Positions 202 to 30,888 of a stretch of 31,780 nucleotides of DNA are shown here, in pieces. The translations under genes and the position numbers were made by a program. How positions within the stretch are numbered: position 1 is the stretch's first letter; every line of letters begins with the position of its first letter. Where the stretch lies: contig JAKSYS010000705.1 in the NCBI GenBank assembly GCA_022925895.1, forward strand, positions 1 through 31,780. The letters are read 5' to 3'. This stretch comes from Fragilaria crotonensis (Eukaryota > Bacillariophyta > Fragilariophyceae > Fragilariales > Fragilariaceae). The notes under the pieces were generated by a model, which was not told the origin of the DNA, did not search any database, and saw only the letters and a list, made by a program, of their open reading frames with translations.

Positions 202-236
202 GGATTTGTTGCGAGTGCACTTTCTCGCAACAATCC
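202..236 (+). other. LTR hairpin containing the putative self-primer
   Basis: The left arm GGATTTGTTGCGAG and right arm CTCGCAACAATCC pair over about 13 bp with one bulge and an 8-nt loop. The right side, CTTTCTCGCAACAA at 220-233, is also perfectly complementary to the 14 nt directly downstream of the LTR (360-373). The same hairpin occurs in the 3' LTR, with the segment at 6031-6044. Confidence 0.75.
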
Positions 237-359
237 GTTAGTTAGGTTCGAAGTTTGATTAACTTCCGACTACTATCAACACTATCTATATCGTTCAAGA
301 AAAAACAATAACGAGTTGAAGGCTCTATCATATTGTGGACGGAGTAGCTAGTTGCAACA

Positions 360-373
360 TTGTTGCGAGAAAG
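360..373 (+). other. Putative primer-binding site (self-primed)
   Basis: TTGTTGCGAGAAAG starts at the first base after the 5' LTR, where an LTR retrotransposon keeps its primer-binding site. It is perfectly complementary over 14 nt to 220-233 of the element's own LTR. I do not recognise a tRNA 3' end (no TGG start). Self-priming by the transcript's own 5' end is known for Tf1 of fission yeast; its use here is inferred. Confidence 0.55.
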
Positions 374-824: not shown

Positions 825-2317
825 ATGAGCAGCAACAGCAGCACTGGCGCCGATACCACTACCAGCGGCCTGACGACCGAGACCGGTCGTGGCAACTCCA
901 CCAGCCGTACGGCGGGGCGAGGAAGAGGACGTGGTCGCGGAGGAAGCGGACGTGGCCATGGACGCTCCACCGTTTCCAGACCCAGGAGCACCGGGTTCAA
1001 AGGCACAACACCCGAGATGAACGGGAACGTTTTTGAGTGCTATGACGAACAGACAGACCGCAGGCAGTACATGAAGACCCTTGAAGCGTTGGAAGGATAT
1101 GCTAAGAAGACTCTCATGCAGAAGACTTGTCGCCCCTGTTTGCAACCGAGATGAGACTACCGACACTGGAGAAGCCAGCAAGACCAGGTGCAGACGCCGA
1201 CGAGACAGACATTGCGATTTGGAATGAGGACATTCGCGACTACGCGAAGAGAAAGCGTCCTCCGAGGAAACCTCGCCGCACTCCACGCTGTGATTTGGGG
1301 ACAGTGCAGTGAGTCCATGAAGGCAAAAGTGAAGTCCCTCGACGGCTACGCCCAAAGCACTGCCAACGATGACTGCGAATGGCTTCTTAACAATATCAAG
1401 GCTGTAACCATGCAGTTTGACGCCAAACACAACGGATACATATCCATGCTCGACGCCACGGCGAGTTTTCTCAACTGCAGGCAGCAGCAGGGACAAAGCG
1501 CTGACAGTTACCTTGAAGCTTTGAAGAGCCGCAGTGACACCATCGAGTACCACGGAGGTACACTTGTACTCAACCCGAAGTTGGCCCCAGAGACAAAGAA
1601 GACGGTTCCAGGTACACCGAGGAAGAGCGTATGAAGATCGCACGCGACTGCACTTTGCAGCTGCCCTCATTCGTGGCTCCGACCCGACCAGATATGGAAC
1701 CCTGGTTGCCGACCTCTCGAACCAGTACAGCAAAGGGAAGGATGAGTACCCGCGGGACCTCGCATCGGCATACAGCTTGCTCGTAAATTACCGCACTCCA
1801 ACGAACGCGGCCCGCGGTAGGACCCACAACAATGGAAGCACAAGCGAGACGACCACAAACGCTGGTGTTCCCAGGCTACCCCGGCGGCTCGGAGGGCAGC
1901 GCCATGACCTTCGCGCAACGCACCACTACTGTCACCCCAGGAACAAACGGGATCACGCACGACGGCGTCACCTGCTACCGATGCAACGAAACAGGACATT
2001 ATGCTTCCGACTGCCCCACCGACACCAACTCCACCGCGTCTGCCGGCACTACGCTCGTTCAGTACGGTTTCACGCTTGCTCAGGGCGTGTCAGGAATTGA
2101 CCCCTCGTGGATTTTGCTGGACTCACAGTCCACAATCTCTGTATTTCGCAACGCCGACATGTTAACGAACATCAGGCCAAGCGAACACGTTCTTCGCGCC
2201 GTTACAAACGGCGGCCACCAAGACTCGACCCTCGTGGGCGATTTCCCTAACCTCGGCAAGGTTTGGTTTAACCCTCAGTCCATCGCAAACATTCTCTCCT
2301 CGCGGAAGTTCGCAAGG
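825..2317 (+). pseudogene. gag: gag and protease region, frame-broken
   Basis: The reading starts at ATG 825. An N-terminal Ser/Thr- and Arg/Gly-rich tail (GRGRGRGGSGRG) is followed by a capsid-like helical part (QQQGQSADSYLEALKSR), then a CCHC zinc knuckle at 1973-2014 (CYRCNETGHYASDC), then a retropepsin-like site at about 2108-2146 (WILLDSQSTISVF). Frame changes are needed near 1110-1140, 1255-1310, 1600-1635, 1830-1855 and 2310, so no continuous polyprotein is encoded as written. Each piece keeps recognisable family sequence up to its break, which is more like recent single-base indels than long decay. The protease triad reads DSQ where most Copia elements have DSG or DTG. Confidence 0.85.
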
Positions 2318-3560
2318 TTTGTCGCGTCATGATGGACACCGCCACGGAACCTGCCATGATCGTTCACCGCCTCGACGGATCTGCGATGAAATTCCTCGAA
2401 CATGTATGTGGTTTGTATGTTTATGTTTCCCTTCTAATGCTAGTAGCCACTGCGTTACAGCCTATAACATGGTGACCACCGTCGCCAATCAGAAGAAGCT
2501 TTTTAGCCGACGCGATGTCGCGAATGCCGATGCGGCACGTGCCCTGTACCGCATGATCGGGCGACCCAGTGAAGCAGTTTTCCAACGCATCCTTGCCGGA
2601 GGTTTTATTCGCAACTGTCCCGTCACGCCATTGGATGCGAAACGCGCCCTTGTCATTTATGGCCCTGACATTGCCACCCTCAAAGGAAAACCACGCGTGC
2701 CGGCGCCGCCACGCACACACCCGCGCTCGAATCTGTTCCATTGCCCCCTCCGGTGCTCGACCACCACCGCGACGTCATCCTCTGCGTTGATTTTTCTTCG
2801 TCCAAGGCCACGCCTTTTTTCACACCATCTCGCGCAACATCCAGTTTCGCACCGTCAGCTCCGTGCCCGACCGCACCCACTCTACAATGGTGAAGGAGGT
2901 TCAGGCCGTTCTTCGCCTCTACGCCGCCCGTGGTTTCAACGTGTGCGCCCTACACGTCGACCACGAGTTTGCCTGCATTCGCGACGCCGTCGCCCGATCC
3001 ACCTTGACGTCGTCGCCCCCGACAGTCACGTTGGCGAAATTGAGCGTTCCGTCCGCACCGTCAAGGAGCGCCTCCGCTCCACCGTACACGGCCTCCCTTT
3101 TAAACGCTTGCCCAAGCTCATGGTCGTCCACATGGTAGCCGACGCTGTTCGTTGCCTTAACATGTTCCCCGCCGACAACGGTGTCTCCCCTTTTCTCAGC
3201 CCTCTTTCCATCGTGACCGGCGTCCCGCCGCCTGACTATGCGTGCCTTCGTCTCGAGTTTGGCACCTATGTCCAACTCTTCCAGGACCATTCCCCGTCCA
3301 ACACCATTGCTGCACGCACCCTCGGCGCCATTGCCCTCACCCCAACTGGCAACGCGCACGGCGACTACCACTTCTTGTTGCTCGCGTCCGGCTGTCGCGT
3401 CTCCCGGCACCGCTGGACTGCTCTCCCGATGACCGACATCGCCATCGCTCGCGTCGAGGCCCTCGCTCTTCACGAGAAACAGCCCCTCATTCAGGAAGAT
3501 GGTCTCGTCGTTGAATGGCGCCCAAACCAGCCCGTTGACCTTGACGAATATGACCGCGAC
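2318..3560 (+). pseudogene. pol: pol: pre-integrase and integrase, frame-broken
   Basis: This part inserts the cDNA into the host genome. The pre-integrase zone includes ADAARALYRMIGRPSE and YGPDIATLKGK at about 2525-2700. The three catalytic acids of a DDE integrase can be placed: the first in CVDF near 2790, the second in HVDHEF near 2960, and the Glu in VGEIERSVRTVKER near 3030-3080. They sit in different frames: breaks occur near 2310, 2430-2445, 2700-2800 (a T-run one base short near 2791-2795) and 2990. The downstream stretch to about 3500 (MVADAVRCLNMFPADNGVSP) matches the integrase C-terminal part of Copia elements. Confidence 0.85.
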
Positions 3561-4064
3561 TACGTTCCCCCCCTCCGCGCCGATGTCGATGACCCCCTCC
3601 TCGCCGCCGATTACCCCCCCATTGACCCGACCGAGTTGGCCGACCTTCGCGCCGATGCTGCTCCTCCCGACGATGCCCCTTTTCCCGCCGTCGCGCTCGA
3701 GGACCAAGGAGCGCACATAACACAGCCCGACGCGAATCCCCACATTGACGAACCCACCGAGAACAATGGGACTGATTCATCTGTATTCTACGAGGAAGAC
3801 GAGGAAGACGCCGACGAATACACCTACGATGACGTCACAGGCGACTACACAGCACAAGAAGACGACGGAGACTACGAGCAGGACTACGACGTACCACATG
3901 CCGACGCAGACACAGATTTTAATGATGCTACACTACTGGGAGACGACGATGAAGCACCCGACGGGCTCCTGCTCCAAGATGATACAAACGCTGAAGAACA
4001 AGGAGCGAACACGACCACCGGTACGAACAACCAAGGAGCGTCTTTACAAGCCAGGTACAACCTT
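3540..4064 (+). other. Acidic disordered linker between integrase and RT
   Basis: About 170 codons continuous with the integrase frame are dominated by Asp and Glu (for example EEDEEDADEYTYDDVTGDY). They end at the basic motif ARYNLRNRIDTTARR, which in Copia elements lies just before RT. The segment is probably intrinsically disordered; no domain is recognisable. Confidence 0.7.
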
Positions 4065-4521
4065 CGGAACCGGATTGACACGACCGCCAGGCGATTCAGG
4101 AATGCCATGGACGAACCATTCAACAATAAGTCGTACTTCCCGCCAACCCAGCTTTTACAGGCTGGCGGTGACATTTTCCGCTACATCATGGATATGTGCG
4201 CGACTGACCCTGCGTTTGCCTACACCATGACGCAGATGTCTGCTAATGCTGGGATCAAAAAGCACGGAAGAAAGGCGATGGAGGCTTTAATGGCCAAATT
4301 CGCTCAACTCGAAGACCTAACCGCTTACGAGCCGCTTGACCCCACGAAGCTGACCAGGGCCCAAAAGAAATCGGCCCTCAGAGCCATAAACCTCATCAAG
4401 GAGAAACGGTGCGGAAAGCTAAAAGGACGAACTGTCGCAGATGGACGAGCACAGAGAACTTTGTACGATAAGTCTGAAACTGCATCCCCAACTGTGGGTA
4501 CGGACTCGCTCATGATATCGA

Positions 4522-6057
4522 TTGGACATCGCCGGTGCCTATCTTAAAGCGTACATGAAGGACTTCGTTATCATGAAGTTCACGGGTGCATCCGTTGACA
4601 TACTGTGCGAAATGAACCCCAAGTACACCGCCTTCGTGACTGTCGAGAACGGCGCGAAAGTCATATACGTTCGTCTGATCAAAGCCCTTTACGGGTGCGT
4701 CCAGTCGGCTCTACTGTGGTATGAAATGTTTCACTCCTACCTCGAGGAAATCGGTTTCGTACTCAACCCGTATGACCCGTGCGTTGCAAACAAGGTCATA
4801 AACGGTAAGCAATGCACGGTTGCGTGGTATGTCGACGACATGAAAATTTCGCACGTCGACCCAAACGTTGTTACCCAAGTTATCGAACAGATTGAGGATC
4901 GGTTCGGGAAGATGACCGTCACCAGAGGCAAAGAGCACACGTTCCTCGGGATGAAGATTCTGTACAAGGAGAATGGAACCGCAGAGATCACCATGCGGGA
5001 CTATTTGGAAGAAGCCATCGTGGACTCCGGATTGGAAATATCCAGAACCGCAGCAACACCAGCCAGAAGGGACCTATTCGAAACCGACGCCATCGCACCA
5101 CCCCTTGCGAAGAGGGAAGCCGAGATTTTTCACAGCGTGACAGCCAAGCTCCTGTATGTGTCCATACGCGCACGCATGGATATACTCCTACCCGTCATTT
5201 TCTTGTGCACACGAGTTTCCAAATGCACCGTACAGGATCAAGCGAAACTGAAACGAGTTTTGGAGTACTTAAAGGGTACTTTACACTATAAGTATACGAT
5301 CGGTTCGGACGACATGGGAAAAATCAGAACATGGGTGGACGCATCATACGCAGTTCACCCCGATATGAAGAGCCACACCGGCGGCTTACTGTCTTTCGGT
5401 ACTGGTGGCCTCGTGTGTAAGTCAGCCAAACAGAAATTGAACACCAAGAGTTCCACCGAGGCCGAGCTAGTCGGAGCTAGCGATTACCTCCCAAACTTAA
5501 TGTGGGTACAGAACTTCCTGAAAGGACAAGGATACGAAGTGAAGGAGAGCACGCTGCAACAGGACAACGAAAGCGCCATCAAGTTGGAGAAGAACGGGCG
5601 GATGTCGGCTGGGCAAAAGTCCAGGCACATCGACATCAGATATTTTTGGATTAAGGATCGAGTGCAGTCGAACGGCGTAACCATCCAACACTGCCCCACT
5701 CTCGAGATGCTAGCGGATTTTTTTACCAAGCCTTTGCAGGGCAATTTGTTTCGTCGTTTCCGAGATGTCATTCTAGGATACAGCCACATCGACACCCTCC
5801 GGCGCGACCCCGCCGTACCGGTCGAGGAGCGTGTTGGAAAAAGACAACCGAATACGCGCGACGTCGCACCTCCGGGTGCAGAGGAACTACATGAAGGAGA
5901 AGTAAGAGGTAAGAAGAGTGCTATATGTGAACGTACGTGGGCCGACGTAGTCAGAGGGCCCGTGCGTGGAAAAGAACGAAGGGCACTACTAATAAACGAA
6001 GAGAATAAAAAAGGATTTGTTGCGAGTGCACTTTCTCGCAACAATCCCGTTAGTTAG
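4522..6057 (+). CDS. pol: pol: reverse transcriptase and RNase H, reading into the 3' LTR
   Basis: This open stretch copies element RNA into DNA. It begins with DIAGAYLKA, part of the RT fingers; the codon at 4522 is TTG, so this is the start of an open stretch and not a real initiation site. The catalytic motif YVDD is at 4828-4839. RNase H follows at about 5335-5760 with VDASYA, KSSTEAELVGASDY, QDNESAI and SRHIDIRYFWI, and ends near FFTKPLQGNLF. The frame then crosses into the 3' LTR at 5832 and adds 74 residues before stopping at 6055-6057. About 15 residues expected between DSLMIS and DIAGAYL are missing, and the frame changes there. Confidence 0.92.
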   Translation: MDIAGAYLKAYMKDFVIMKFTGASVDILCEMNPKYTAFVTVENGAKVIYVRLIKALYGCVQSALLWYEMFHSYLEEIGFVLNPYDPCVANKVINGKQCTVAWYVDDMKISHVDPNVVTQVIEQIEDRFGKMTVTRGKEHTFLGMKILYKENGTAEITMRDYLEEAIVDSGLEISRTAATPARRDLFETDAIAPPLAKREAEIFHSVTAKLLYVSIRARMDILLPVIFLCTRVSKCTVQDQAKLKRVLEYLKGTLHYKYTIGSDDMGKIRTWVDASYAVHPDMKSHTGGLLSFGTGGLVCKSAKQKLNTKSSTEAELVGASDYLPNLMWVQNFLKGQGYEVKESTLQQDNESAIKLEKNGRMSAGQKSRHIDIRYFWIKDRVQSNGVTIQHCPTLEMLADFFTKPLQGNLFRRFRDVILGYSHIDTLRRDPAVPVEERVGKRQPNTRDVAPPGAEELHEGEVRGKKSAICERTWADVVRGPVRGKERRALLINEENKKGFVASALSRNNPVS

Positions 6058-6171
6058 GTTCGAAGTTTGATTAACTTCCGACTACTATCAACACTATCTA
6101 TATCGTTCAAGAAAAAACAATAACGAGTTGAAGGCTCTATCATATTGTGGACGGAGTAGCTAGTTGCAACA
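5832..6171 (+). repeat. 3' long terminal repeat
   Basis: The 340-bp direct copy of 23-359 has two extra A after AATAAA and one extra C after the hairpin. It contains the poly(A) hexamer at 6004-6009, the hairpin with CTTTCTCGCAACAA at 6031-6044, and the last 74 pol codons. Confidence 0.95.
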
Positions 6172-6176
6172 ATGCG
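6172..6176. repeat. Target-site duplication, right copy
   Basis: ATGCG directly after the CA end of the 3' LTR matches 18-22. Confidence 0.95.
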
Positions 6177-6366
6177 GCATGCACCATGCACAGCACGGAG
6201 TATGATGGAAATGTTCCAATGAAAAGATCTGTTTTCGTTGTTCACAATCTCTTGTCACACAAACCAACATGTGCCGCGGCTGGAAGCCAGCAAGCTATAC
6301 AGTTCAATCTATTCATGCGGCCGCTCAAGATCCTTCCTCTTGCAGCGCTGCACTCTGTCTTTGGGC

Positions 6367-7689: not shown

Positions 7690-8890
7690 AGAGGGATGAT
7701 GGAATTATCCCCTTCAACTGATTGTTATTGATTTTCACAATCGACAATTTGGTCAAGAGTCCAAGCTCACTAGGAATTGTGGACGTCAACGAATTGTTGA
7801 ACAAATACAATTCCATCAATTGTGTCATGAGTCCGATCTCACTTGGAATTGTGGAAGACAACGAATCGATGTACAAGGACAATTTCTGCAATCCTGTCAA
7901 CAGTCCGATCTCACTAGGGATTGTGGAAGTCAATGAATTGTTGAACAAATCCAATTGATACAACTGTGTCAAGAGTCCGTGCCATCTCGCTTGGAATTGT
8001 GGAAGTTAACGCATTCTAGTCGATATGTAAAACCCATAACTGTGTCAACAGTCCAATCTCAGTTGGAATCTTAGAGTTCAACAAATTGCCGGACAAAGCC
8101 AAAGATGTCAACTGAATCAAGAGTCCAATCTCACTCGGAACTGTGGACTTCAACTGATTGTAAGGGAATGCCAGATGCTGTAACTTAGTCAAGAGCGCAA
8201 TCTCACAAGGAATTGTGGAAGTCAGAATATTGGAAAAGAAATCCAAAGATATCAACTGAGTCAAGAGCGCGATCTCTTTAGGGATTGTCCCCTTCAACTC
8301 ATTGCCTCCGAGATCCAAATCCTGTAACTGCGTCAAGAGTCCGATCTCACTTGGAATTGTGGAAGTCAATCTATTGGCAAAGATATTCAAAAACTGTAAC
8401 TGAGTCAAGAGCGCGATCTCGCTTGGGATTGTTGAAGTCAACGCATTGACCCAGAAATCCAAAGATACCAACTGAGTCAAAAGCATGATCCCACGTGGAA
8501 TTGTGGACTCCAACCGATTGGCAGAGACATCGAAAGAAGTCAACTTAGTCAAGAGCGCAATCTGGCTTGGAATTGCGGAAGTCAACGTATTGGAGGATGA
8601 TTCAAAATGGGTCAACTGAATCAAGAGTCCGATCTCGGTGGGAATTGTGGCAGTCAAATCATTCAAGGAGAAAGACAACTGCGTCAACTGTGTCAAAAGA
8701 CCAATCTCACTTGGAATTGTGGACACCAATGAATTGTACGTGAATCCCAAAACCTGCAACTGTGTCAAGAGCCCGATCTCAGTTGGTATCGTGGAATTCA
8801 GTTGGTATCGTGGAATTCAACTTATTGTCCCAGAAGTGCAAAACCTTCAACTGTGTTAAGAGTCCAATCTCACTTGGAATAGTGTAACCA
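7690..8890 (-). repeat. 72-bp LRR-encoding tandem repeat array
   Basis: About 15 units of about 72 bp share near-identical DNA around CACTTGGAATTGTGGA and the AAGAGTCCGATCTC segment. Similarity at the DNA level, including silent sites, suggests recent repeat expansion or gene conversion within the array. Confidence 0.8.
8781..8818. repeat. Exact 19-bp tandem duplication in the LRR gene
   Basis: AGTTGGTATCGTGGAATTC at 8781-8799 is repeated exactly at 8800-8818. Nineteen is not a multiple of three, so it breaks the LRR frame and creates a stop just downstream on the minus strand. Confidence 0.95.
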
Positions 8891-12411: not shown

Positions 12412-12614
12412 GGAATTGTACTACCGTTAGCTACTAGTAGTATGTGAAGTGTACTGTAGGTGCTGCAGCCTGAAGCGCAACAATATATTGTATGTACAAT
12501 ATATTGCAAAATATTGTTACCAATATATATTGTATCGGTTCGTCTGACAATAACAATATACTGTATTGGCGTTTCCAACAATACCAATATATTGTATTGG
12601 TAGGTCCAACAATA
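12412..12614. repeat. Palindrome-rich array, left part of block A
   Basis: This opens the duplicated block (compare 23939 on). After a unique lead, units built on the palindrome CAATATATTG alternate with spacers of the form TTGG-N5-CCAA (for example TTGGTAGGTCCAA). The array is interrupted at 12614 by the DNA element. Confidence 0.85.
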
Positions 12615-12639
12615 GGGAGATCCGGGTAGAGTCGTGATT

Positions 12640-12676
12640 CCACTAAGTTTCCCTTGTCATAAGGGAACCTTAGTGG
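12640..12676. other. Hairpin near the left end of the DNA element
   Basis: CCACTAAGTTTCCCTT and AAGGGAACCTTAGTGG pair at 15 of 16 positions around a 5-nt loop (GTCAT). Confidence 0.8.
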
Positions 12677-12750
12677 AAGGGAAAGTCCGGAATTAGAGAT
12701 CCGGGTTGACGTGCGGCAAGTGAAATTTCTACTAAATTCCTGGACAGGGA

Positions 12751-13275
12751 TTCCTCCTGAACGTCAAACAAGATTCCGCTGTGAGTTGATTTTTCATCGA
12801 AAGCCTGTTGGTGGGTTGTTTTCAGCTAATTCGGATTGCTGAGCACTGTCGTTTCTATTGCTAGATTTTCCGTATCGATATTAGTCTATAGTCTAAACAT
12901 AAGTCAGTGGTTTAGGGGATACATTATCTGTATCGCAATCGCCGTTGTGATCGGAGAGCGACGACATCGTTTTTGCTCTGAGCGCGCCAAGCCAACGCTC
13001 GAAATTTCGAATAAACTTCAGCACAAGGATTCCTCAGTAAAATGGGAAAGATTCCGCACAAGGTCCGTGTTGTCAAGTAGTGTTGGTGCTCGAATCTCAG
13101 CGGATTCGAATTTTTGAGCATTGTCGTTTGTACCGTTAAATCCGCAATGTCCACATTAGTCTAGGAAAGATGACAAGTCAGAAGTGAAGGTGATTCTTGC
13201 ACCGGTTTTGCAATCGACGTCATGGCGGGAGAGGGATGTCGTCGTTTTCCGGTTGGTGCCGACTAATTCGAACGC
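12751..13275. repeat. Imperfect tandem duplication of about 250 bp in the DNA element
   Basis: Copy a (about 12751-13015) and copy b (about 13026-13275) share ordered matches: GATTCCTC...AGATTCCG, TGAGCA(C/T)TGTCGTTT, A(T/C)ATTAGTCTA, GCAATCG(C/A)CGT and the following CGTCGTTTT-like segment. This suggests one internal duplication that has since diverged. Confidence 0.6.
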
Positions 13276-13566
13276 TTTTGTTGACAGCTTTGTCTTCAAG
13301 TACGACGTCCTGCTTTGGCTTACATAAATGTAGTGCAACGTGGAACTTGGAAAGCAATAATTTGACACGTGTAACGGAGTCTTGATAGCAGAAAACGCAG
13401 TGGAATGAAGCAGCGTCAAACTTCCACTAAGCCCCGAGGATCGACCTTTATCAGAAATTGCGAAACAAGATTCCCTTTTTCTGATCCGTTATTGTGACTC
13501 ATAACCGGTTCTGAGCTGAAATAGCAGAAACGTTAGTAGAAACACGACTCCACCCGGATCTCCCTA

Positions 13567-13795
13567 ATAACAATATATTAATAACAATATATTGTACAAT
13601 ATATTGTATATGTACAGTAAGACAGTAGTAGTATGATCTACTACAGTACTGCTGAGCAGCGTACCAGCGTGCCGTACGTAGTATGAAGTACTCCGAGTAT
13701 GAACAATATATTGTAATATATTGCAATATATTGTTATCAATATATTGTATTGGTCTGTCGGACAATAACAATATATTGTATTGGACTGTCTGACA
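13567..13795. repeat. Palindrome-rich array, right part of block A
   Basis: The CAATATATTG units continue, with spacers such as GGTCTGTCGGACAATA. A non-array stretch at about 13608-13702 (GTACAGTAAGACAGTAGTAG...) also occurs at 24205-24290 in block B. Confidence 0.85.
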
Positions 13796-14775
13796 GCAGC
13801 CTCCACACTCCACAGTCCATATTGCATACAACTCTGTAACACTACCTAGTACTGTAGTACCAGCCTATATACTTATACCGGTCCTCCTCCAAACTACAGT
13901 ACGAGTATCACAATCCACAATACAGAATACAGGCACCGACACCGGGAGTAGCATTTTCTACAATACTTAGCCTGACTATTCTCCTGTTTCAAAAAAAACA
14001 TTATTAGGAATTAGGATAGCACGCCCAAAGGAGTTGTGGTGAAAGTGGAGAGCGGAGAGCCAAAAGATTGTTGGAGTCTTCTAGCTGGTCGCATTGTGGG
14101 AAGCTTATTTTGTGTCAGAAGCTCTTGTGAAAACATGGTCTACGTGGGGCTACTATACGTTTTCTTTATTTCGTCAAGGTCATCGAAAGTTTTACTAGCA
14201 ACGCATTGCGATACCTGTCAACTACCTAAAGTCTGGTTCCCTAAAGTCTGGTTCCAAATAAGCCAGCTTAAGCACACCAGCCACAGTCTGATTCGTTCAC
14301 CTTGTTGCTATAATGCAACCAAATTACCTAGGTTCATCCCAGTACTCCCGGTCGTGTCCTTTCTCACAAAGCCGCTACCAGTCCAGTCAACCCAACTTAA
14401 GCGTTTCCAGATGCCATACTTTCAATCAGAACAAATTGGCTGACGAAGAAAACGCCTATTGACATCAAGCAGACCATCAATTTATTGTCGCTACTCTTGA
14501 CCATTTCGTCGGAAACAATATTGTGGAAGTTGGCAATTCCATGACCACTCATAGTGGCGCTATCGACCGTAAATTAATGCATCATACAACCGAGGTGGAG
14601 ACAAGTAGAGAAAGTCATATTCCGATGGTCCCAATATGTTATTATAAGACTTCTGATCAAAACTTGTTACACATGTCAGCGCTCCAATTCGCCAACGTCC
14701 ATCAAATAACACCCACGGCGATACTTCCATTTCTCAGTTCAGAGATGTAGTTGCATGGGATGAATGCTGGATTGT
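13796..14775. other. Duplicated non-coding stretch downstream of copy 2
   Basis: The sequence is nearly identical to about 24510-25514. The part from about 14170 also resembles, at lower identity, the region downstream of copy 3 (about 16410-17058). No gene is secure. Relative to block B, about 33 bp are missing near 14176. A short plus-strand frame at 14523-14750 has weak protein-level similarity to one at about 16860-16995 (see findings). Confidence 0.6.
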
Positions 14776-15694
14776 TCACTTTTTGGTGGGCTTCTTTTGC
14801 TGATTTCCATTGCCCTTACCTAGAGCGGCATCGTATACCTTCAACTTTACCTTCCAGTAGCAGTAGCAGCCCCAATGATAGCAAGTATGATTGCGACTAT
14901 GATGGACCCGATAGCAAAAAAGAAAAGACCAGGGTTGTCATTCTTGAGGTCTTTCACCATTTGAATGAATGTCTTTTCCTCACCTGATGATTCGGGTGGA
15001 ACGGATGGGGCCAGCACGGAAATTGGCAACCCAGTCCTTCTACTTCCCCATGTGGGGCTTCGGAATGTTGGGCGGGCTGTCGTCGCAGATGTTTTCTGTA
15101 CCGGCAACGGTGTTGGCGATGGCAAGGACGTGGAACTTGGTATCGCCCATGTAGGCTGTAACGACGTAGGCGACGACGAAGGGGTTTGCACACTAATGAA
15201 GTTGCCTAACGAAGCAATGGCATTATCCAAGAACGTTTCTGTCTTGAGCGTTCCGAGCACAGACGCCACTGCGAAATTGAAATAGGATGCCACATTTTTG
15301 GCAGTGGATGACACATAGACGCTCATCTTGCCGTTGATGGTGTAGCAATTGGCCACATTGGTGGCGCAGGCGCCTGCAATTGTATCTTTTGGATCCAGAT
15401 CCAGGCCAACAACGTCCGGATACTTGGAGGTGTCCGTTCCACTTGCTGCGCAGGTGGGGATAATGAAGGGGCGATTTTCTCGGCAAGTGCCTTTTCGATT
15501 GCTGGCAAGATATTTGTTCTGATATCTGCTTGGGTTGTTCCACTCTTTACCGTAAGATCGTATTTGAAGGACATGCCTACAAAGTCGCCGCTGTCGACCC
15601 CTATGAACCTGTCAACGACGGTACACCCAGCCGAGACGTCCTTTGCCGTGAATGCGAGGACGAGCAGGAGGAGGATTGCCTTACCACACCACAT
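14776..15694 (-). CDS. Paralog copy 2: secreted/membrane protein, two frame breaks
   Basis: ATG 15694 opens a signal peptide (MWCGKAILLLLVLAFTAKDV). The ectodomain with its conserved cysteines follows, then a Pro/Thr/Ser stalk, a membrane segment (LFFFAIGSIIVAIILAII) and, by comparison with copy 4, a basic tail stopping at 14776-14778. The frame breaks at 15468-15471, where copies 3 and 4 have GGGGG and this copy GGGG, and again at 14870-14873, where copy 4 has CCCCC and this one CCCC. Both are one-base homopolymer losses. Apart from these it aligns end to end with the paralogs and may be intact in reality. Its 3' half is almost identical to copy 4. Confidence 0.75.
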
Positions 15695-18228: not shown

Positions 18229-20732
18229 AACGACAGGCTTCCGAGTGGCTCTTGATATCTCAAGTTGGAGTTCTTCAATAAAAACTGGCTCTGTGGCATT
18301 CCGGTACGGTCTGGAACCAAACTGCCCATCATTCAATAACCGAAGATCTTCCGCTTGATGCATCGCTTCGCGCCACTTGATACCAAGAAACAAGTTGAAA
18401 TCGGCTTCGTAGATGTGGATAACGCGTGTGCGATGCAACCGAACATTATCGGGGTCTTTAAATAGCATAGTATTTACCACTTTTTGCCACCGCTGGAAGG
18501 AATAGCCGCGCTCAATGAGTAGTTGATTAGCGCTAAGCGTAGGCTTCGTAAGGCCTGCTGTCGATAGTTCAGGTGTCTCGTTTCTCCCTATACTCTGGAG
18601 TCAAGTCTTCGTCAGCAGCTTCAGAGGAGTATGAATGCCGCGCGATGAGAGCTTTATAATGCCCTAAGTGCATACCGGAAGGGGACGTTGTAGTGGATTC
18701 GGACCAAAGTTTCAATTTGCTACAAAATCGTCGTCACTGATAGTGGGGCGGGTCGTATCCGCGATTGTGGACTGGGCAAATTGGAGGTGACGGAGGAGTA
18801 GCTGGATGCTCCCTTCAAAACCAGAATTGTCGAATGTTCCCCGCAGGAGTTGGTTTTGCGTCTCACTAGTACCAGTGTAGCCCAGCAGTTCCGACAAGGG
18901 TGGTATCGTGAACGGGGTACCTTGGGCTTGACCGAAATGCAACCGGTTCCTCTCTTGAAGAAGACGAACGATCTCGGATGGGATATCGACTTGGGTCCAT
19001 TGGACACACGTTTTTGGATCGTCGCCTTCGTTCAGTGGAATTTCTAGACGGACAACACTACCTTGGTGGGATTTGCCACGTACGTGTCTTAGTTTGTCGG
19101 TGACTGCTTTGATGTCCTCGGCTTTCATGATCCTGCGCAACCGTTGCGCAGTGAGCTTATCGGCTTTTGAAATTGATTTTTCCAGGTCGTTGATGCGCTG
19201 AAGACGCTCAGAGCTACGGGTCGCAAAACTATCCTTGATGATTCGCTGACCTCATTTTTGCCCATCTAAGGAGACGTGAGCAATGGCCTTGATTCCTTGG
19301 TAGTTCGTCAGTAGGGAGTTCGACTGAATATTCTTGGAGAATGATGGAACTATCGAGTGCATTTCGGAATGCGGATAAGCATTTCCGAAGGTATTGAACT
19401 CGACGTCGTGCTGTAGCTAATGCGACCGACCAAGCTGGCTCATTAAACTGTGGAATATGTGCCTCAGCGGCTAGACTTGCAGCTAAAACATCCCGATCTA
19501 GTTTTTCCGCATATTGATGCCTGTTTCCCGCATACGTCAACCGCTCGCCTCGTCGGAAAGCATTGTGCTCCTCAAGGAACTCATACATGTTGTTGATATA
19601 TTCGGTGACCTGATGAGGGTTTGTTGCTTTGAGCATGCGCCGAGCTGGTGTTGCAAGATCCTGAGTCGGACTGCCGAAGAGTTTGACCGTGTCGAAATCG
19701 AAAGAAACCTCTGTGATCCGAAGATAAGCGAGCATTGAAGGCGTCATATCCCATCTTGACCAGCGCCTCTTGGAGTCGCTGACTGCCGAGAGCATAATCT
19801 AAACACTTGGTGCCACGAGCGTAAGTCGCGGGAACCTTTGATGAGTGTCGACAAGCACTCAGGCTAACCAACTTCAGTTCTCCTGCAACAAAACTTAAGC
19901 CGTCGGGATCAGAACCGAATGCTTCGTTGAAATCCCCGACCAATAAAATGTCAGCACCTGCTCGCTGATATACGAGCAACTCTTTGAGCAAATCTCGACG
20001 AAATGCTGATCTTGGATTACTTAGTGCGTCCTGAGATTGCAGAAGGAGGCTTCGTTGTTGGCCTGCCACAGTTAAGTTGCCGTCTTGTCCCCGTTTGTCA
20101 ACTGGTTGGTAGGCGGATGCAATAACAATTCTTGTCCCCGAACGACCAACGAATTCTTGAACAACCCACCGACCCCATCGATCTTGTGTTTGACGGATGA
20201 TCCGACCGGATAAGCTCCCTATGGTTAAGAGGAACGTACCGCCGGGCTTGTAATGCGTTCGAAACGGGATGGGCGTAGTGCCTGCGATAAACTTTGTTCG
20301 ATGCCAGTATTGTTTAACCGTATCGTATAAAATACTTCTAATATACACTTGAGTGACGTCGAGGTTGTGCTCTTGCCCACAAAAAACGTCCCCTTGAACT
20401 TCTTGAAGAACTTTGCATACGTCGTTGAGTTGTCCACCTCTTCGGTCTAAAGATAAACCATTGACGTTTTGAACGTAAACTCGGGTACAATTGGGCGCTT
20501 TGGAGGTGAGAATATCTCCCCAAGGGTAATTCTCGCGTTGGTTGCTCCGAGTAAGCGAACTTGGCTGACGTCCGTGCTTGTCGGAGTCTTCCAAAAAATT
20601 GCTTTGGGACATAGCCTTACTAAATAGATTTTTCCATTGCGCTTGTGCGCTCTCCAATGAATGTCTCGCATTTGAACCTTCTCCCAAAGCTGATGTCCCT
20701 TGGACGGCTGCGATGCTTCCTTGTGTACTCAT
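18229..20732 (-). pseudogene. ORF2: APE-type endonuclease and truncated RT
   Basis: ATG 20732 overlaps the ORF1 stop. The endonuclease nicks target DNA to prime reverse transcription, and its motifs are present in order: RVYVQNVNGLSL, FCGQEHNLD, ASAYQPVDKRG, LLVGDFNEAFGSDPDG, CLDYALGSQRL and LSSDHRGFF. A frame change near 19700 leads to a helical linker (NNMYEFLEEHNAFRRGERLT), then, after more breaks and an in-frame TGA near 18590, to RT pre-motifs SESTTTSPSGMHLGHYKALI and YEADFNLFLGIKWREAM. The reading is lost at 18229, so the polymerase catalytic site is missing and the protein cannot be active. Confidence 0.85.
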
Positions 20733-23392
20733 GCTTCAGTCGCTCCAGCTTGATCCGAGGGATAGGTGTATTGGGAATCAAGGGGAGCGGGTAATGGATA
20801 AGGCGTCGGTTGGGTTAGGACAGGCGACATACTAGGGTCATGCGGGGGAAGATTGACCTGAGCAGGGCTGCTGATGATGTCCGGAGAGTCGAAGGCTTCA
20901 TCAAGGTTAGTACATACTTCCATAAGCTCAACTTCGGAGTTACAACCAGGAGAATCGTTGGAACTGTAGACTTGATGAGAATGGTCATGCTGTTGCTTCT
21001 TGTTACCGAGTTTCCGATGCGAACGTTGTTTCTTCTTTTCCGGGGAACAATAAACCTTTGAGGAGGCGGACGAAGTGACGGACTGGGCGTTGGACTGTGA
21101 CGACCCTGAAGCAGAACTTGCGCTACTTGTAGAGCATAAGTCCGTAACGTGTCTTTGAGACAGCACCGACTTGGAAGGTGGTTTGTCCATGGAGGCCACC
21201 GCAGTGATTGGTCCTGGTTCTCGATCAAATTCCATTTTTGTCGCCAAGCCTTCCATAAAGGCAGACAACTTTTCAAAATGTGCATGTAAATCGAGCATTG
21301 TAGTCGACATCTTGTGTTGACATTCCATATTTGTCAGTAACCGATTGTTCATTTCTGTAAATTGTTTTTCCGTGAGAACTTTCATCTCCTCCATATCTGC
21401 GGAGATATGTTTCTGAAGTTCGCCAGATTTCTCGATCTGTTCGGTTGCCTTCTCCACTTTGTCCGACACCGCTGCCAATTTTTTATCGAATTCGTCGATC
21501 CTTGTGAACTGTTGTTCGATTGATTGTAACCGCATTGAAGACTTTCGGCCTGATACATCAAGTGCTTCCAACTTCTTTTTCATTGATCTTTCTAATTCGA
21601 GAAACTTGGTATCCGACGAAGTTCTAGAAGCGTGCGTGAGGAATGTGTTGACCCGGCGCTCCGATCTTCATCAGTGCCGATGGATGTATCGCCTCCTGCA
21701 CTATTGAGATCGGCTGCTACCTGGCCTTGTTTGGTCTTCCATGCGTTGCGAAGGGGTCTCATTGGGTTGGAGGCCTCCATTGGTGTGGGCCACTCTGGAC
21801 TGCCTTCCGATCGTCGTTTACTGATGTGATTTTGGGCGCGGTTGACCTCCCCTTCTGCTCGAGCGTTCGGGAAAGTAGAAACTTGCTCTTGAATGTTGTC
21901 ATGCCACCCTGCTGCCGTTGAGAGCTTGTCTAGGAACGATACATTAGCGGCAATTTCGGCTTGGATGTGAATGACATCCGGTAAACCTGGAATCTTGTCC
22001 CGGTAACGTGCTTCCCGTTGGTTGGGTGGATACAGGCGTGATTTGTAGGACCTCCACTCTTGTTGAACCTTCTGCAAATACTGGCTTGGGACCAACAAGT
22101 AAGCTTTATGATCGGGTGGTCCGTTCACTACATCGCAAAGTGCTGGGGAGACGTTGTCTACCGCCAGTATTGTTGCTGCCCATTCTCGAGTAGACCGTTC
22201 GATCGTGGTTCCATCTGCATTATATTCAATACGTGCTTGATCGAGATGGTTGATGGTCGGCGTCATAGGAATGGCCTTCAGAGAGCGTGCCCACCTTTCA
22301 TGTACCTGAAAATGGCTGCGAATTTTTCATCTGTCATTGTACCTAATGCGTATCTTGGGATGAAGAGCACTCCGTGACCTGTTAAAACTGGAAGCAACGC
22401 ATGACATAGGGCATCACGTGTTTCTCTCCGCATTGGATACGAAGATGTGGTATCAACTGATCCATTGGAGACTTTTGTACCGGACGATGTCAAAGTATGG
22501 GGTGTTGGTGGGAAGCACGCTGCGCAAGAATTGAGTATATCGATGAAGCTGGGTGGTGTTGGGAGCTTTCAAGAGGACGTATCCTGCGATGACCATTTTT
22601 CCACTTGTGCTCTTGGAATTTGAGATCGATAACTCCACTCTTGGCCTTGAGAACTCCTGCCGTAATGTTTGACCGCAACCACTGCCCTGGAGTAATGCTG
22701 AAACCGATCCGAAGTCCAAAATGATCTGGCGCTGGGAATGAACGATTGTTATAACAGGAGTGATAAAGTCTCGAAGTTCTTCTGCAATCATGCTCGGTGC
22801 CGATTTGGACACAGAGAGAGGTCTTCGCTCTCCCACCTGTAGAGAATTCCTACCTCATGGGGAATCAGTTCCTGAACGATGTCATAAATGGCTTCATTCA
22901 GTTTCTTTTTATCTTTCTCGTATGCATGAGTGTTCTCAGGTGGTGTCCATTTGACATTTACTCGATGAGTACCGTCGTTTGTGGGAATATTCGGGAAAGG
23001 GAAGACTTCAACTGTGTGGGCACTGAGTTTTCACTTGCCAACTCGGGATGTGGATTATCGGTCATTGCCTGCGAGTCAACTTCTTTCTTCTTCGATGTCT
23101 TCGGTAACTGTGGTCACAGGTGGGAGACCTTGAGACCAGGAGAGCTTTGAGAATCGTTTCTTTTTGGTGGATTCTGTTTCGTTGCACTTTTGAAAGCCGA
23201 CAATGCCAAACTACTGGGAGACTCATCCTCCAATGACTCTAGGAGGCGATCAGGTGAGACGGTTGTGGTATTGTTGGTGGGTGGTGGTTCGTTATCGGTA
23301 GACTTCGGAGGGCTTTTGGAACGTCTCCGCCCCATGACTGGAATCCAATCCGTCTGGTCGTCGGTATCCATCGGTGTCGTCATAAACGGCAT
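20729..23392 (-). pseudogene. ORF1 of the LINE-like element, frame-broken
   Basis: ATG 23392 (MPFMTTPMDTDDQTDWIPVM) is the most likely start. Pieces in changing frames follow: a Ser/Pro-rich acidic start, a segment with QRQIILDFGSVSALLQG and KMVIAGYVLLKAPNTTQLHR, one with VLFIPRYALGTMTDEKFAAI and YLLVPSQYLQKVQQEWRSYK, then a clear coiled coil (21583 to about 21240, beginning MKKKLEALDVSGRKSSMRLQ), and a Ser-rich, basic C-terminus. The length, about 880 codons, is large for a LINE ORF1. It presumably binds element RNA; I see no RRM or zinc knuckle. The frame breaks lie near 22850-23110, 22480, 22270 and 21590. Confidence 0.65.
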
Positions 23393-23938: not shown

Positions 23939-24500
23939 AATTGTGTACTACCGGTAGCTACTAGTAGTATGTGAAGTGTACTGTAGGTGCTGCAGCCTGA
24001 AGCGCAACAATATATTGTATGTACTGTACAATATATTGCAATATATTGTTACCAATATATATTGTATTGGTTCGTCTGACAATAACAATATATTGTATTG
24101 GCGTTTCCAACAATACCAATATGTTGTATTGGTAGGTCCAACAATAACAATATATTGTATTGGTAGGCCTAACAATAACAATATATTGTACAATGTATTG
24201 TATATGTACAGTAAGACAGTAGTAGTATTATCTACTACTGCTGGCACGCTTTCCAGCGTGCCGTACGTAGTATGAAGTACTCCGAGTATGAACAATATAT
24301 TGCAATATATTGTTATCAATATATTGTATTGGTCTGTCGGACAATAACAATATATTGTATTCTGGACTGTCTGACAATAACAATATATTGTATTGGTCTG
24401 TCGGACAATAACAATATATTGTATTGGTTGGTCCAACAATAACAATATATTGTATTGTAAAATCAAAAACCAACAATACAATAACAATATTATTGTGCGC
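23939..24500. repeat. Palindrome-rich array, block B
   Basis: At least twelve copies of CAATATATTG are linked by about 20-bp spacers. Most units read CAATATATTGTATTGG + 5-8 nt + (C)CAACAATAA. Spacers vary (TAGGT, TTGGT, CGTTT, TAGGC, TCTGTCGGA) while the flanking TTGG and CCAA are mostly kept, so each unit can fold into a long hairpin. A perfect 7-bp stem (GGCACGC/GCGTGCC) is at 24243-24262. Confidence 0.85.
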
Positions 24501-25514
24501 ATCCCTGGCAGCCTCCACACTCCACAGTCCATATTGCATACAACTCTGTAACACTACCTAGTACTGTAGTACCAGCCTATATACTTATACCGGTCCTCCT
24601 CCAAACTACGGTACGAGTATCACAATTCACAATACAGAATACAGGCACCGACACCGGGAGTAGCATTTTCTACAGTACTTAGCCTGACTATACTTCTCCT
24701 GTTTCCAAAAAAACATTATTAGGAATTAGGATAGCACGCCCAAAGGAGTTGTGGTGAAAGTGGAGAGCGGAGAGCCAAAAGATTGTTGGAGTCTTCTAGC
24801 TGGTCGCATTGTGGGAAGCTTATTTTGTGTCAGAAGCTCTTGTGAAAACATGGTCTACGTGGGCTACTATACGTTTTCTTTATTCCGTCCTTCTACATCT
24901 TGGTTCTGAAGGCAAAGGTCATCGAAAGTTTTACTAGCAACGCATTGCGATACCTGTCAACTACCTAAAGTCTGGTTCCCTAAAGTCTGGTTCCAAATAA
25001 GCCAGCTTAAGCACACCAGCCACAGTCTGATTCGTTCACCTTGTTGCTATAATGCAACCAAATTACCTAGGTTCATCCCAGTACTCCAGGTCGTGTCCTT
25101 TCTCACAAAGCCGCTACCAGTCCAGTCAACCCAACTTAAGCGTTTCCAGATGCCATACTTTCAATCAGAACAAATTGGCTGATGAAGAAAACGCCTATTG
25201 ACATCAAGCAGACCATCAATTTATTGTCGCTACTCTTGACCATTTCGTCGGAAACAATATTGTGGAAGTTGGCAATTCCATGACCACTCATAGTGGCGCT
25301 ATCGACCGTAAATTAATGCATCATACAACCGAGGTGGAGACAAGTAGAGAAAGTCATATTCCGATGGTCCCAATATGATATTATAAGACTTCTGATCAAA
25401 ACTTGTTACACATGTCAGCGCTCCAATTCGCCAACGTCCATCAAATAACACCCACGGCGATACTTCCATTTCTCAGTTCAGAGATGTAGTTGCATGGGAT
25501 GAATGCTGGATTGT
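24501..25514. other. Duplicated non-coding stretch downstream of copy 4
   Basis: This is nearly identical to 13796-14775. It contains about 33 bp (near 24887-24920) that block A lacks. No gene is secure. It belongs to the segmental duplication described in the findings. Confidence 0.7.
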
Positions 25515-26431
25515 TCACTTTTTGGTGGGCTTCTTTTGCTGATTTCCATTGCCCTTAGCGGCATCGTATACCTTCAACTTTACCTTCCAGTAGCAGTAGC
25601 AGCCCCCAATGATAGCAAGTATGATTGCGACTATGATGGACCCGATGGCAAAAAAGAAAAGACCAGGGTTGTCATTCTTGAGGTCTTTCACCATTTGAAT
25701 GAATGTCTTTTCCTCACCTGATGATTCGGGTGGAACGGATGGGACCAGCACGGAAATTGGCAACCCAGTCCTTCTACTTCCCCATGTGGGGCTTCGGAAT
25801 GTTGGGCGGGCTGTCGTCGCAGATGTTTTCTGTACCGGCAACGGTGTTGGCGATGGCAGGACGTGGAACTTGGTATCGCCCATGTAGGCTGTAACGACGT
25901 AGGCGACGACGAAGGGGTTTGCACACTTATGAAGTTGCCTAACGAAGCAATGGCATTATCCAAGAACGTTTCTGTCTTGAGCGTTCCGAGCACAGACGCC
26001 ACTGCGAAATTGAAATAGGATGCCACATTTTTGGCAGTGGATGACACATAGACGCTCATCTTGCCGTTGATTGTGTAGCAATTGGCCACATTGGTGGCGC
26101 AGGCGCCTGCAATTGTATCTTTTGGATCCAGATCCAGGCCAACAACGTCAGGATACTTGGAAGTGTCCGTTCCACTCGCTGCGCAGGCGGGGATCATGAA
26201 GGGGGCGATTTTTTTGGCAAGTGCCTTTTCGATTGCTGGCAAGATATTTGTTCTGATATCTGCTTGGGTTGTTCCACTCTTTACCGTAAGATCGTATTTG
26301 AAGGACATGCCTACAAAGTCGCCGCTGTCGACCCCGATGAACCTTTTGACAACGCTACACCCAGCCGAGACGTCCTTTGCCACGATGGAAAGAGCTATCA
26401 GGAGGAGGAGGATTGCCTTACGGTACCTCAT
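25515..26431 (-). CDS. Paralog copy 4: secreted/membrane protein, recombinant of copies 3 and 2
   Basis: ATG 26431 is chosen because MRYRKAILLLL starts the signal peptide; the frame upstream to 26551 is only flank. The ectodomain, Pro/Thr/Ser stalk, membrane segment (LFFFAIGSIIVAIILAIIGG) and tail (CYCYWKVKLKVYDAAKGNG, ending in KKPTKK) give a complete type I membrane protein. One break at 25858, where copy 2 has GGCAAGG and this copy GGCAGG, splits it in two frames. The 5' part matches copy 3 and the 3' part copy 2, with the switch at 26135-26161. This is the best template for the family. Its function is unknown. Confidence 0.8.
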
Positions 26432-26856: not shown

Positions 26857-29800
26857 CTAATCGCGTGTGCAGTCACTACCGGTCGTAGCCGAGTAAGATT
26901 GCTGGCGACTGAGTTTACTCTTGTTCGCCACCTGTCTGGCGACTTTGATGTCAGGACATGCTTGCATGGCCGATAAGACAAGGTCCAGTCCTGTCTGATC
27001 TGTCCCTGACAAGGCAAACTCAATGATCGTACTAGAGTCACCTCCAGAACGGAGGCCGTATTGATCAATCTTCACGCCAGGGGCGGCATCCTTGATGAGC
27101 TGCATGGTTCGATTTAAAACAAGATCCGAAGGTTGGACCTCGACGCGCAGCAACAACATGGAACTCTCATCTTGTAGGCTCTGATCCAAGGATTGGATTG
27201 TGAATTTCCCAATACCTTGTCCATCATTCGAACAATATCATCTGCAGATGGACGTTCCGATGGGATTGGAGACAGCATCGCCGAAAGCATGGAGTTAAGA
27301 ATGGGAACGATCCAGCAACATTGGTTGCCCACTCGTCTGGAATCACTCCTTGTCGCAATCGGGAGAACATTATATGCCGTTCCATTCCAGTGGACATTCG
27401 AAAGGTCAGTTCAAAGAGAATGAACCCAAGTGAGTAAATGTCGGTCGAGTTGTCGTAGTCTGAGCCCTTAATCTGTTCAGGACTGGCGTAAGCCCGTGTT
27501 CCAACCCCAGCAGTATTTTCCTCCCCATCGCCATTCGACAAAGATCTGTCCTCCTCAGCGCGCAGCGATGTATTCATCAAATTATTTGTTTCTCGACTTA
27601 GACCAAAATCTCCAACCTTGACAATGCCGGAATCATCCATGAAGCAGTTATTTGGTTTCAAATCTCGATGGATCAAGTCTTGAGAATGAACGTACTTGAC
27701 ACCCATGGCAATATGGTGAAATAACTTGAGCGCGTAGTGGATATCCACTTCTGTCCCATCAGGTGTACAGCGTGCCTTGTGATTACAAAGAAAGTTAGCC
27801 AAAGTCTTTTGACCACAAAGTTGCATTTGAATGTACAAAATGTGTCGCAACTTTGGCTCACTCGGTGTTTTAGAAACCGAGGATTCCGCATCAGACTTTT
27901 CAGACAAGACGGTTCCAAGACTGCCATCGTCCGAGGAACAGGATGATGAAACGTTGTCTTCGTCGTCGTCATCGCTCTGCTCCTGCTGATGAATTGGCTC
28001 AAATTGTACCATTTTGCTGGATGTGTTGTTGTCATCATCGTTGCTTTCGTCTTCCTCCTCGGTTGGCTCATTAGTCGAATCGCCGCTGTTCTCGTCGCGT
28101 TCAAAGTGAAAGCCATAATCGGAGAGTGATTCGACAGAGGCATATGTTCGTTTCTCGAGAGATAACTGTGACATGTCCTCATCAAAGATATTCCAATGAG
28201 TTCCTAAAGGATTGGGTTGTGGTGGTTGCGATTTCCGCTCTGTTGGGGTGGTCCTCTTCGCCGGTTCATCGTCATTTGACTCGGTCGACCATCGTCAAGC
28301 CAACCCGCCGTTGTCAACAAGATGCTACTTGAATATCGTTTGGAACGATACTTGTAACTGGTGTAATAACCCTCATCGCCAGTGCCTCGTGCTGCTGAAG
28401 ACATGTTTTCTCTGCCTTCGTCGGTTCTTTCTTCCACTTCCATCCATGCCGTGTAATATCGCACAATGTTGGGATGGTCCAGCAGCGCCAAAATCTTGAC
28501 TTCTCTTAAAACTCGCTGAAGACGATCTCGGGTGAGCTGGGGGTCGTCAAAGAGTTGAATCGGCACTTTCTTAACGGCGTATTTGCGACCATCCAGCAAG
28601 TTTTGGCATTCAAATACAGATCCAAATCCTCCCTTCCCGAGTGGTGCGAGTTCCTTGAATTCCGATCGATATCTCGAGTATCGAACTAAGGAAAGCCTTC
28701 CAGGCTTGCTGGTACCTTGAGCATAGGGGATACTTGACTTAATTGTGCAGCTGTCGAGGAATTATTGTCCGAGACAGTGTTGGAAGACCTCTGTCGCAGT
28801 GAGGTAGTGCCTCCGGTGATAACGAGTCGAGCAGCGCTCCCTTTATCCCCACTGACCGCCGACTTGTCTCGACTCAATACTGGCATGCTCGTGCTTCTCG
28901 TCACCACGTGTGGTGAAATACTACTACTGGTAGTATTACTGTCACGAAGATGATTATGATTTCCTCGATTGGTACCGACACATGCCGGTCCAATGATAGT
29001 GGTGAAAATTGGGAGGAATGTCGCTGTGATGTGATGTAGCTGGGGTCGAATCTTCTGGCTGCACCAACCAATTTTGTTTCTTATTCAGGTACATGTACAC
29101 GATTCCACAGGCTCCGGCAATGGCGGTGATAACAATACCCGCCAAGATTGGCCATGTGAGGAATAAACCGCCGGATGGTCTCAAATCCGGTGGATATACA
29201 GGGACTGTTGCGATTGGTGTTTGTTGTACGCCATCGGGGATGGGAACATAGAATGCCGGTTCACCGGGTTGAACACAAATGAAGACATCGGGCCGCAGAG
29301 AATCGAGCACACACATTGGGCCCACAACTCCGTTTCCCAACTGTTGTTGTTGTAGTTGTTGTTGTTGTAGTTGTTCCTGAGTTCGCGCCTCGTCCGAATT
29401 GTCGTTGAAATTATTCAACTCGTTTACGAGTGGCGGATGGTAGAGTCCAAGACTCGTGTCGAATGCCCACTGTTGTGCTGTATATGCTTGCTTCAATTGT
29501 TGTTCCATTAAAAGTTGATAAATTTCATCATCTTGACTGCCTGGTGGCAAGAGCAATTGTTGCGGTTCGGACAATGGAGTACCCGTATCATCGTCATGGT
29601 CCTCGGGATTTTCATCATCTTCCGGTTCAACAATGGTGAGTGGAACCCATATTCCATCACACAATCCATACACTCGTGCAATGACATGTGGCAATTGTCG
29701 TCGCCATTGCACTTGTCGAGTGTTTTGATCAATGACTGTGAGGATGCGACCTTGTTCATCAAAGGATATAAAAGGCATCTTGACCATCATCATTCCGATA

Positions 29801-30888
29801 TCATCATCTTCATTCTCAGGAGTGAGATCCTCGATTCCATCATCATCAATCATAAGATTACCAGTGGTCGATGTCGTCGTTGGTCCAGTCGATGCAGAAT
29901 GCCGTTTGGATCCAAAATTAGGCGCTGAAAAGCGTCCTAGGGTAACATTCCAAACTTGATTTCCCGTGGATGCCGAAAGGTGTTGTACAAAGTAATCCTC
30001 TCGCTGCAGTACGACAATATCATTCGATGATGATTTACTGTTGGATGACGAATCTGATGGTGGCGATGACGAATGCGAACTCCAAACCAGTTTTCCAGAC
30101 GAGGCATCCATTCCATACAGTGATGTGAGCTTGGCAGCTGTGACAATACCACACAGGGGCGGTTGTCCTGGAAAATGATTTTCGACGCAGGTTTGGACAG
30201 GTGCTTGAAGGATCTCATCAATTGTAACACCCAATTCTTGCATATTCCGAGTTTGGTACAAATTTCCGTCGAGATCGGGAACGACCAATGTGTGATGATG
30301 GTGGTTCATGTTGCCATGATTATTATTTTTGTTGTTGTCAAGGTTATTTTTGTCGTCAGTGTTGTCATTGTTGTTGTTAGTAGTTGTAGTTGTCGAAACC
30401 AGATCACGACCAGTTTGAAAGAAGGAACTCAATTGTCCCGAATCACTGGACAGTGCAATGACAGAACCATCAATCAGAGTACAAATTAATAACGACGGAT
30501 ATCGTACGGATGAGGATATGGCTTTTGAATCATCACCTGTTGCAGCGGCGATGCTGTTGGATGTCAACATGGAAATAAGAACCAGCCAAAGGAATACCGT
30601 TGCTGCGAATTTCGATCCTTGGCTGTGTGTTCGTATCGGTGCTGTTGTTGTTGTTGTTGTTGTTGTTGTTGCCCTTGATGCTACTGTGGTGGATATGGCG
30701 CAAACGACTGGTATTCTGCTGTCATGGTCATTATCGTTGCTGATGTTGCAAACGACAACAACCGTATCTTGTTGCTGCTGTCGCGTTGTGCGTCTGGATC
30801 TTTTGCATCGATTCAGGCATGCCGTGTTGACCATTTGTAATGTTGCTTCAGAGTTCCATATGTCATTAGGATTGCCTTCCACCAACAT
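26857..30888 (-). CDS. PERK: PERK-like ER-stress eIF2-alpha kinase, frame-broken
   Basis: Known PERK senses unfolded protein in the ER and phosphorylates eIF2-alpha. Read from ATG 30888: about 90 low-complexity residues, a hydrophobic signal segment (FAATVFLWLVLISMLTS), a luminal PQQ-propeller-like domain (LICTLIDGSVIALSSDSGQL, LYGMDASSGKLVW, STGNQVWNV), a membrane helix (ILAGIVITAIAGACGIVYMY), then the kinase: LGKGGFGSVF near 28640, Lys in KYAVKKV, DHPNIVRYYTAW, a long acidic insert, HRDLKPNN near 27665, DFGLS near 27605 and YASPEQI. The insert and the lack of an RNase domain favour PERK over IRE1. One-base losses near 29007, 28689, 28276, 27304 and 27207, all in homopolymers, split the frame. 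The end looks ACT-like. Confidence 0.85.

Follow-up and report, generated by a model that had tools for sequence, protein, structure and literature searches.

A Ty1/copia retrotransposon with a primer-binding site complementary to its own LTR: a candidate for Tf1-like self-priming

Organisation of the element

The window is the whole stretch of DNA that was analysed, 31,780 bases long with a GC content of 0.48. A Ty1/copia element lies at its start, on the + strand. Comparison of the LTRs places the 5′ LTR (TGTTGG...GCAACA, 337 bp) at 23-359 and the 3′ LTR (340 bp) at 5832-6171. The two copies differ by two indels and zero substitutions. A target-site duplication, ATGCG, is present at 18-22 and matches the copy past the 3′ LTR at 6172-6176. 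As the LTRs differ by two indels only and ATGCG is found on both flanks, the insertion looks recent.

The near-identical TG...CA LTR pair and the short target duplication conform to the Ty1/copia type. The reverse transcriptase (RT) is also of the Copia type, matching PF07727 at 1.4e-12, which is over the cut-off; together with the RNase H region it occupies 4516-5829. A gag zinc knuckle (PF00098) was found by Pfam at 1970-2017, within an ORF at 1787-2332. Between the proposed primer-binding site (PBS) and gag there is an ORF of 126 codons (442-822), for which the Pfam search gave no family above the cut-off. The coding frames of the element are interrupted, and no Pfam integrase ahead of the RT was found in 2166-4547 at E values up to 1. 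Within the 5′ LTR, AATAAA at 195-200 may serve as a poly(A) signal or as a TATA-like element.

Other features lie elsewhere in the window. On the minus strand, 7695-8887 encodes leucine-rich repeats in units of 72 nt (PF23598, PF00560). The stretches 12417-15124 and 23944-25858 are duplicated approximately 10.6-11.5 kb apart, with many pieces 97-99% identical, and beside them are four related 300-nt segments (11598, 15190, 17448 and 25923). A repeat spaced at 31 nt and rich in ACAATATATTG forms clusters at 12493-12614, 13715-13782 and 24025-24472. Also on the minus strand, the domains found in ORFs at 27224-28761, 19581-20735 and 28954-30909 are a protein kinase, which is divided between two frames, an endonuclease/exonuclease/phosphatase domain and, weakly matched, PQQ.

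Complementarity at the end of the 5′ LTR

The segment CTTTCTCGCAACAA at 220-233 of the 5′ LTR is the exact reverse complement of TTGTTGCGAGAAAG, which occupies 360-373, directly after the LTR, and is the proposed PBS. A preliminary description of the locus had claimed that these segments are perfectly complementary from the first base after the LTR and that a match of 14 nt at this position is unlikely by chance. The match is exact, and the pairing reaches 15 nt (220-234 with 359-373) by adding the last base of the LTR, an A, which pairs with 234. The segment 220-234 is the proposed self-primer, and its bases 224-233 double as the right arm of an LTR hairpin. The A of a CA dinucleotide at 219 is the putative transcript start, suggested by the sequence and by the folds of starts 216 and 219.

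The low chance level was also borne out. Dinucleotide shuffles of the window LTR gave 11 nt in three of 20,000 cases and 12 nt or more in none. Inside the element, the longest match to the LTR at any of 5,450 positions is 9 nt. The expected number calculated from base composition is 5e-7. The 15 nt of 360-374 are shared by 28 IMG/VR contigs; in the 700 bases that precede them, complementarity does not exceed 7 nt. An origin of the match by chance, or by duplication of the left hairpin arm (206-215), is hardly credible. A duplication would account for the direct repeat of this arm at 360-369, but the complement of 14 nt is four bases longer than the direct repeat of 10, and the shuffle results and the independent case of the relative described below both speak against such an origin.

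No tRNA 3′ end is apparent at the site, as the preliminary description had stated: TGG, the complement of the tRNA CCA end, is absent at 355-400. Near the site, initiator-tRNA probes are mismatched at six or more positions (full tRNA) and at seven or more (half tRNA). The best fit to the site of half-tRNA-iMet Copia elements has 7 mismatches of 15. No tRNA was detected by ARAGORN within the 31,780-base window.

A relative with the same design

An RT profile was searched against a prokaryote genome collection and gave 47 loci with Copia-like RTs, some of which overlap or share a contig (L063/L087, L083/L084). These loci are presumably eukaryotic contamination of bacterial and archaeal assemblies. 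The top match, L041, is on contig PBTY01000005.1 of an assembly labelled Rickettsiales bacterium NP5, and its RT is 30% identical over residues 4-421. The LTR of L041 is at 418-671 (TGTTGG...CCAACA), with the repeat beginning at 6236.

The 15 nt directly after this LTR (672-686) are exactly complementary to 550-564 within it, and the pairing extends to 16 nt with the last A of the LTR. Compared with the window element, the segments have no evident similarity and the architecture is alike. The distance from the last base of the primer to the end of the LTR is 126 bases in the window element and 107 in L041. A CA dinucleotide opens the primer segment in both elements and could be an initiator. 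TGG is likewise absent from the corresponding region of L041 (667-712). In shuffles, 15 nt was attained once in 20,000, owing to the AT-richness of L041. Within its assembly, exact copies of the 15-mer are confined to four places on PBTY01000005.1, two in the LTRs and two at the PBS; three more places match with one mismatch. The gag region of L041 (705-2402) has CCCH zinc fingers (PF00642 barely over the cut-off, others under it) and not a zinc knuckle.

Both the window element and L041 thus have a proposed PBS that is complementary to part of their own LTR. The preliminary description had suggested that the Copia element primes with its own LTR, and had proposed covariation in diverged relatives as a check. 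Both segments are wholly changed in L041 and remain perfectly complementary, which supports priming from the LTR by covariation in one relative.

Control loci and the half-tRNA alternative

The controls were 21 sites in 19 loci, picked by eye, with a PBS of the initiator-tRNA type (10 half, 11 full) after an LTR-like end. Self-complementarity at these sites is 2-6 nt, compared with 14 in the window element and 15 in L041; the scan covered up to 400 upstream bases, and six of the 21 sites had fewer than 210, where a match could be missed. Exact inverted pairs of at least 11 nt occur elsewhere in the fetched loci, up to 15 nt (L059), and none is at an LTR end. When the scan was relaxed to positions after any CA, several chance pairs of 10-12 nt turned up. 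Since long pairs arise away from LTR ends and chance pairs reach 10-12 nt, the length of a match is no proof by itself, and it is the position that provides the proof. A self-match at the LTR end was found in two elements only, the window element and L041.

Several pairs were set aside on grounds of position. A 10-nt pair at L038:649 is inside an ORF, and a 12-nt pair in L074/L104 is beyond the RT, on the 3′ side. The 15-nt pair of L059, the 14-nt pair of L068 and the AT-rich pairs of L039, L040 and L043 are away from the LTR end.

The principal alternative is that the primer comes from a host tRNA, as either an internal fragment or one half, in the manner of Copia elements that use half an initiator tRNA; the LTR match would then be incidental. 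Sites of the half-tRNA type are frequent in the fetched Copia loci (10 of the 21 controls), but this explanation is unlikely for the window element. The complementarity to the LTR is perfect across 14 nt and lies exactly at the site, and the usual half-tRNA site, with its seven or more mismatches, is absent. Moreover, L041 repeats the design with other letters, whereas half-tRNA sites keep letters of the GGTTATGRGC type.

Two observations concern the origin of the sampled loci. Three further Copia-like loci were taken from plasmid records, the three found in the plasmid collection: L038 (NC_015657.1), L039 (NZ_CP115454.1) and L040 (NZ_CP115302.1). They are filed as bacterial plasmids, encode Copia-like RTs and may be eukaryotic contaminants and not plasmids. 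An assembly labelled Trichormus has nine Copia contigs (L049, L053, L057, L064, L065, L067, L070, L078 and L081), seven of which have a PBS of the full initiator-tRNA type; this assembly looks to be contaminated by plant DNA.

Predicted folds and the LTR hairpin

For the predicted RNA 219-440 of the window, the lowest-energy fold contains the whole PBS helix (-54.6 kcal/mol, z -3.4, equalled by one of 200 shuffles). The lowest-energy fold predicted for L041 550-760 also contains the whole PBS helix (-31.2, z -1.7, 13 of 200 shuffles equal). With this z value the predicted L041 fold, from an AT-rich element, is not exceptional. The helix is predicted to close a loop of approximately 124 nt in the window element and 105 nt in L041. 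A long-range helix of this kind might also serve packaging, dimerisation or translation control, with priming carried out by something else. This is very unlikely: nothing would oblige a helix with another purpose to start precisely at the first base past the LTR in the two elements alike, and the site shows no alternative PBS of the full or half initiator-tRNA type.

The LTR segment had also been described as one side of a hairpin just past AATAAA, which agrees with the sequence. The hairpin has a left arm at 206-215 that pairs with 224-233 (10 bp, 8-nt loop), just 3′ of the AATAAA at 195-200, and a copy of it is in the 3′ LTR (6017-6026 with 6035-6044). In the window element, the LTR hairpin and the PBS helix are predicted to compete. 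For RNAs starting at 150, 195 or 206, the predicted probability of the hairpin is 0.72-0.89, as against 0.01-0.22 for the PBS helix. The value for the PBS helix rises to 0.94-0.99 in RNAs that start at 216, 219 or 225, with 0.99 at both 216 and 219. The predicted pairing is compatible with transcript starts at 216-219.

Tentatively, the hairpin 206-215/224-233 may act as a gate which hides the primer unless the RNA starts in the loop, at approximately 216-220. The predicted pairing agrees with this hypothesis, which is less likely than not. RNA bearing the left arm, either by read-through or as the 3′ copy in full-length RNA, would hide the primer segment. Self-priming would then be restricted to genomic RNA that is correctly started, and to its 5′ end only. 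If true, the gate would be special to the window element, as no such pairing partner lies 5′ of the primer in L041. By sequence, the hairpin design is not common to both elements: L041 has a different, 8-bp local inverted repeat (555-562/567-574), downstream of the start of the primer. Its PBS helix has a predicted probability of 0.94-0.97 for starts at 480, 526 and 550, and of 0.03 at 556.

Proposed mechanism of self-priming

The window element is a Ty1/copia LTR retrotransposon that very probably self-primes its minus-strand synthesis in the manner of Tf1. The transcript would start at approximately base 219. The complementarity and the predicted folds suggest that the RNA folds back over approximately 125 nt, so that its first 14-15 nt pair with the PBS just past the LTR. 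By analogy with Tf1, RNase H would then cleave behind base 233 and release a 3′ primer end, which would be extended to copy U5 and R. The plus strand would then copy the attached primer and thereby renew the PBS from the LTR segment in each round. Such rewriting would explain why the two segments stay complementary while the elements diverge.

Relationships and database searches

In a tree of 29 of 44 rows, the window element, L088 and L041 are grouped with support of 100/98; the rows were hand-chosen and the grouping depends on this choice. The rows omitted were the long branches L038, L048, L071 and L158, together with L054, L056, L059, L062, L066, L067, L070, L072, L075, L080 and L085. In the same tree, the fetched plant-type full-tRNA loci are separate from L041 and the window element. 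A quick tree built earlier from 42 of the 44 rows, two rows of under 180 residues being omitted, did not place L041 with the window element; it had several long branches and forks with 0 support. L048, which is half-tRNA-like by eye, was near the window element in this tree, with no support.

L088, from an assembly labelled Chlamydiia, is nearer to the window element than L041 (39% identical) and is on a contig without the 5′ end of the element. Within the group of three, the evidence for self-priming comes from the window element and L041. A more distant locus from the assembly of L041, L118, has no self-match of at least 11 nt at the LTR end in the leader after TCTAACA.

A profile of the window element, L088 and L041 was searched against sets of 390, 232, 392 and 378 prokaryote genomes and matched two new assemblies, G083 and G948. 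The match in G083 covers 259 of 417 profile positions at a contig end, and the repeated unit in G948 has no clear LTR by eye. The window RT matched at E 1e-30 or better in 8 of 16 further assemblies, none of which had a locus closer to it than L088. Among searches for relatives in IMG/VR, one gave no stretch and others gave 59 and 36 stretches, none confirmed by tblastn. DNA patterns in IMG/VR gave 28 and 9 contigs with no convincing Copia match (best E 0.024). The phage collection gave no match and the PDB no sequence match.

Comparison with known systems

The passages of PMC7175516 that bear on Tf1 report that the first 11 bases of its own RNA act as the primer, with a cut between bases 11 and 12. 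Self-priming has also been proposed for Tj1, according to the relevant part of PMC4600332. Similar to these fission yeast elements, Tf1/Tf2 and Tj1, as far as those passages describe them, the window element has a PBS complementary to a 5′ segment of its own predicted RNA. Tf1/Tf2 and Tj1 belong to the Tf1/sushi group of Ty3/gypsy, whereas the RT of the window element is of the Copia type (PF07727) and not of the Gypsy type, which places it outside the Tf1/sushi (Gypsy chromovirus) clade. It also differs from Tf1 in its match of 14-15 nt and in the LTR hairpin around the primer. The steps of self-priming have been demonstrated for Tf1 and are predicted for the window element from its sequence.

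Within Copia, the preliminary description had known of no standard case of self-priming. One does exist as a prediction: the relevant text of PMC6317226 reports predicted self-priming for the TAR lineage of plant Ty1/copia, with Houba and Osr-1. The likeness of this lineage to the window element, both being Copia and predicted to self-prime, was judged from that description. Fungal GalEa elements are also Copia without a tRNA PBS; the portion of PMC5445492 that describes them reports a Conserved Hairpin Site and no LTR sequence complementary to the site. The window element differs from GalEa, so described, in having such an LTR segment. The half-initiator-tRNA Copia elements share with the window element the superfamily, the TG...CA LTRs and, at several loci, a PBS right after CAACA. 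In contrast, they have conserved tRNA-derived PBS letters and a self-complementarity of 2-6 nt.

Self-priming in the Copia group of the window element was not found in the open-licence literature. It was also not reported for diatoms in the searchable portions of the open-licence literature on diatom retrotransposons and self-priming. The paper on CoDi, the diatom Copia elements (PMC2806351), has no occurrence of 'priming' in its main text, where 'PBS' appears only as a buffer.

Implications

The mechanism itself is not new, as it is known from Tf1 and predicted for TAR. What would be new, on the best explanation of the data, is a further Copia group with Tf1-like priming. If this is right, self-priming is found beyond the Gypsy elements of the Tf1/sushi group and the single plant lineage of Copia. 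The proposed self-priming Copia pair groups apart from the sampled tRNA users, so the trait would either have arisen repeatedly or be old.

There is also a consequence for annotation. PBS calls of the LTRdigest type rest on tRNAs. A diatom genome study screened its candidates for a PBS by means of LTRdigest, as stated in the pertinent section of PMC7466962. If the window element does prime itself, pipelines that demand a PBS call for LTR elements can miss those that are self-primed.
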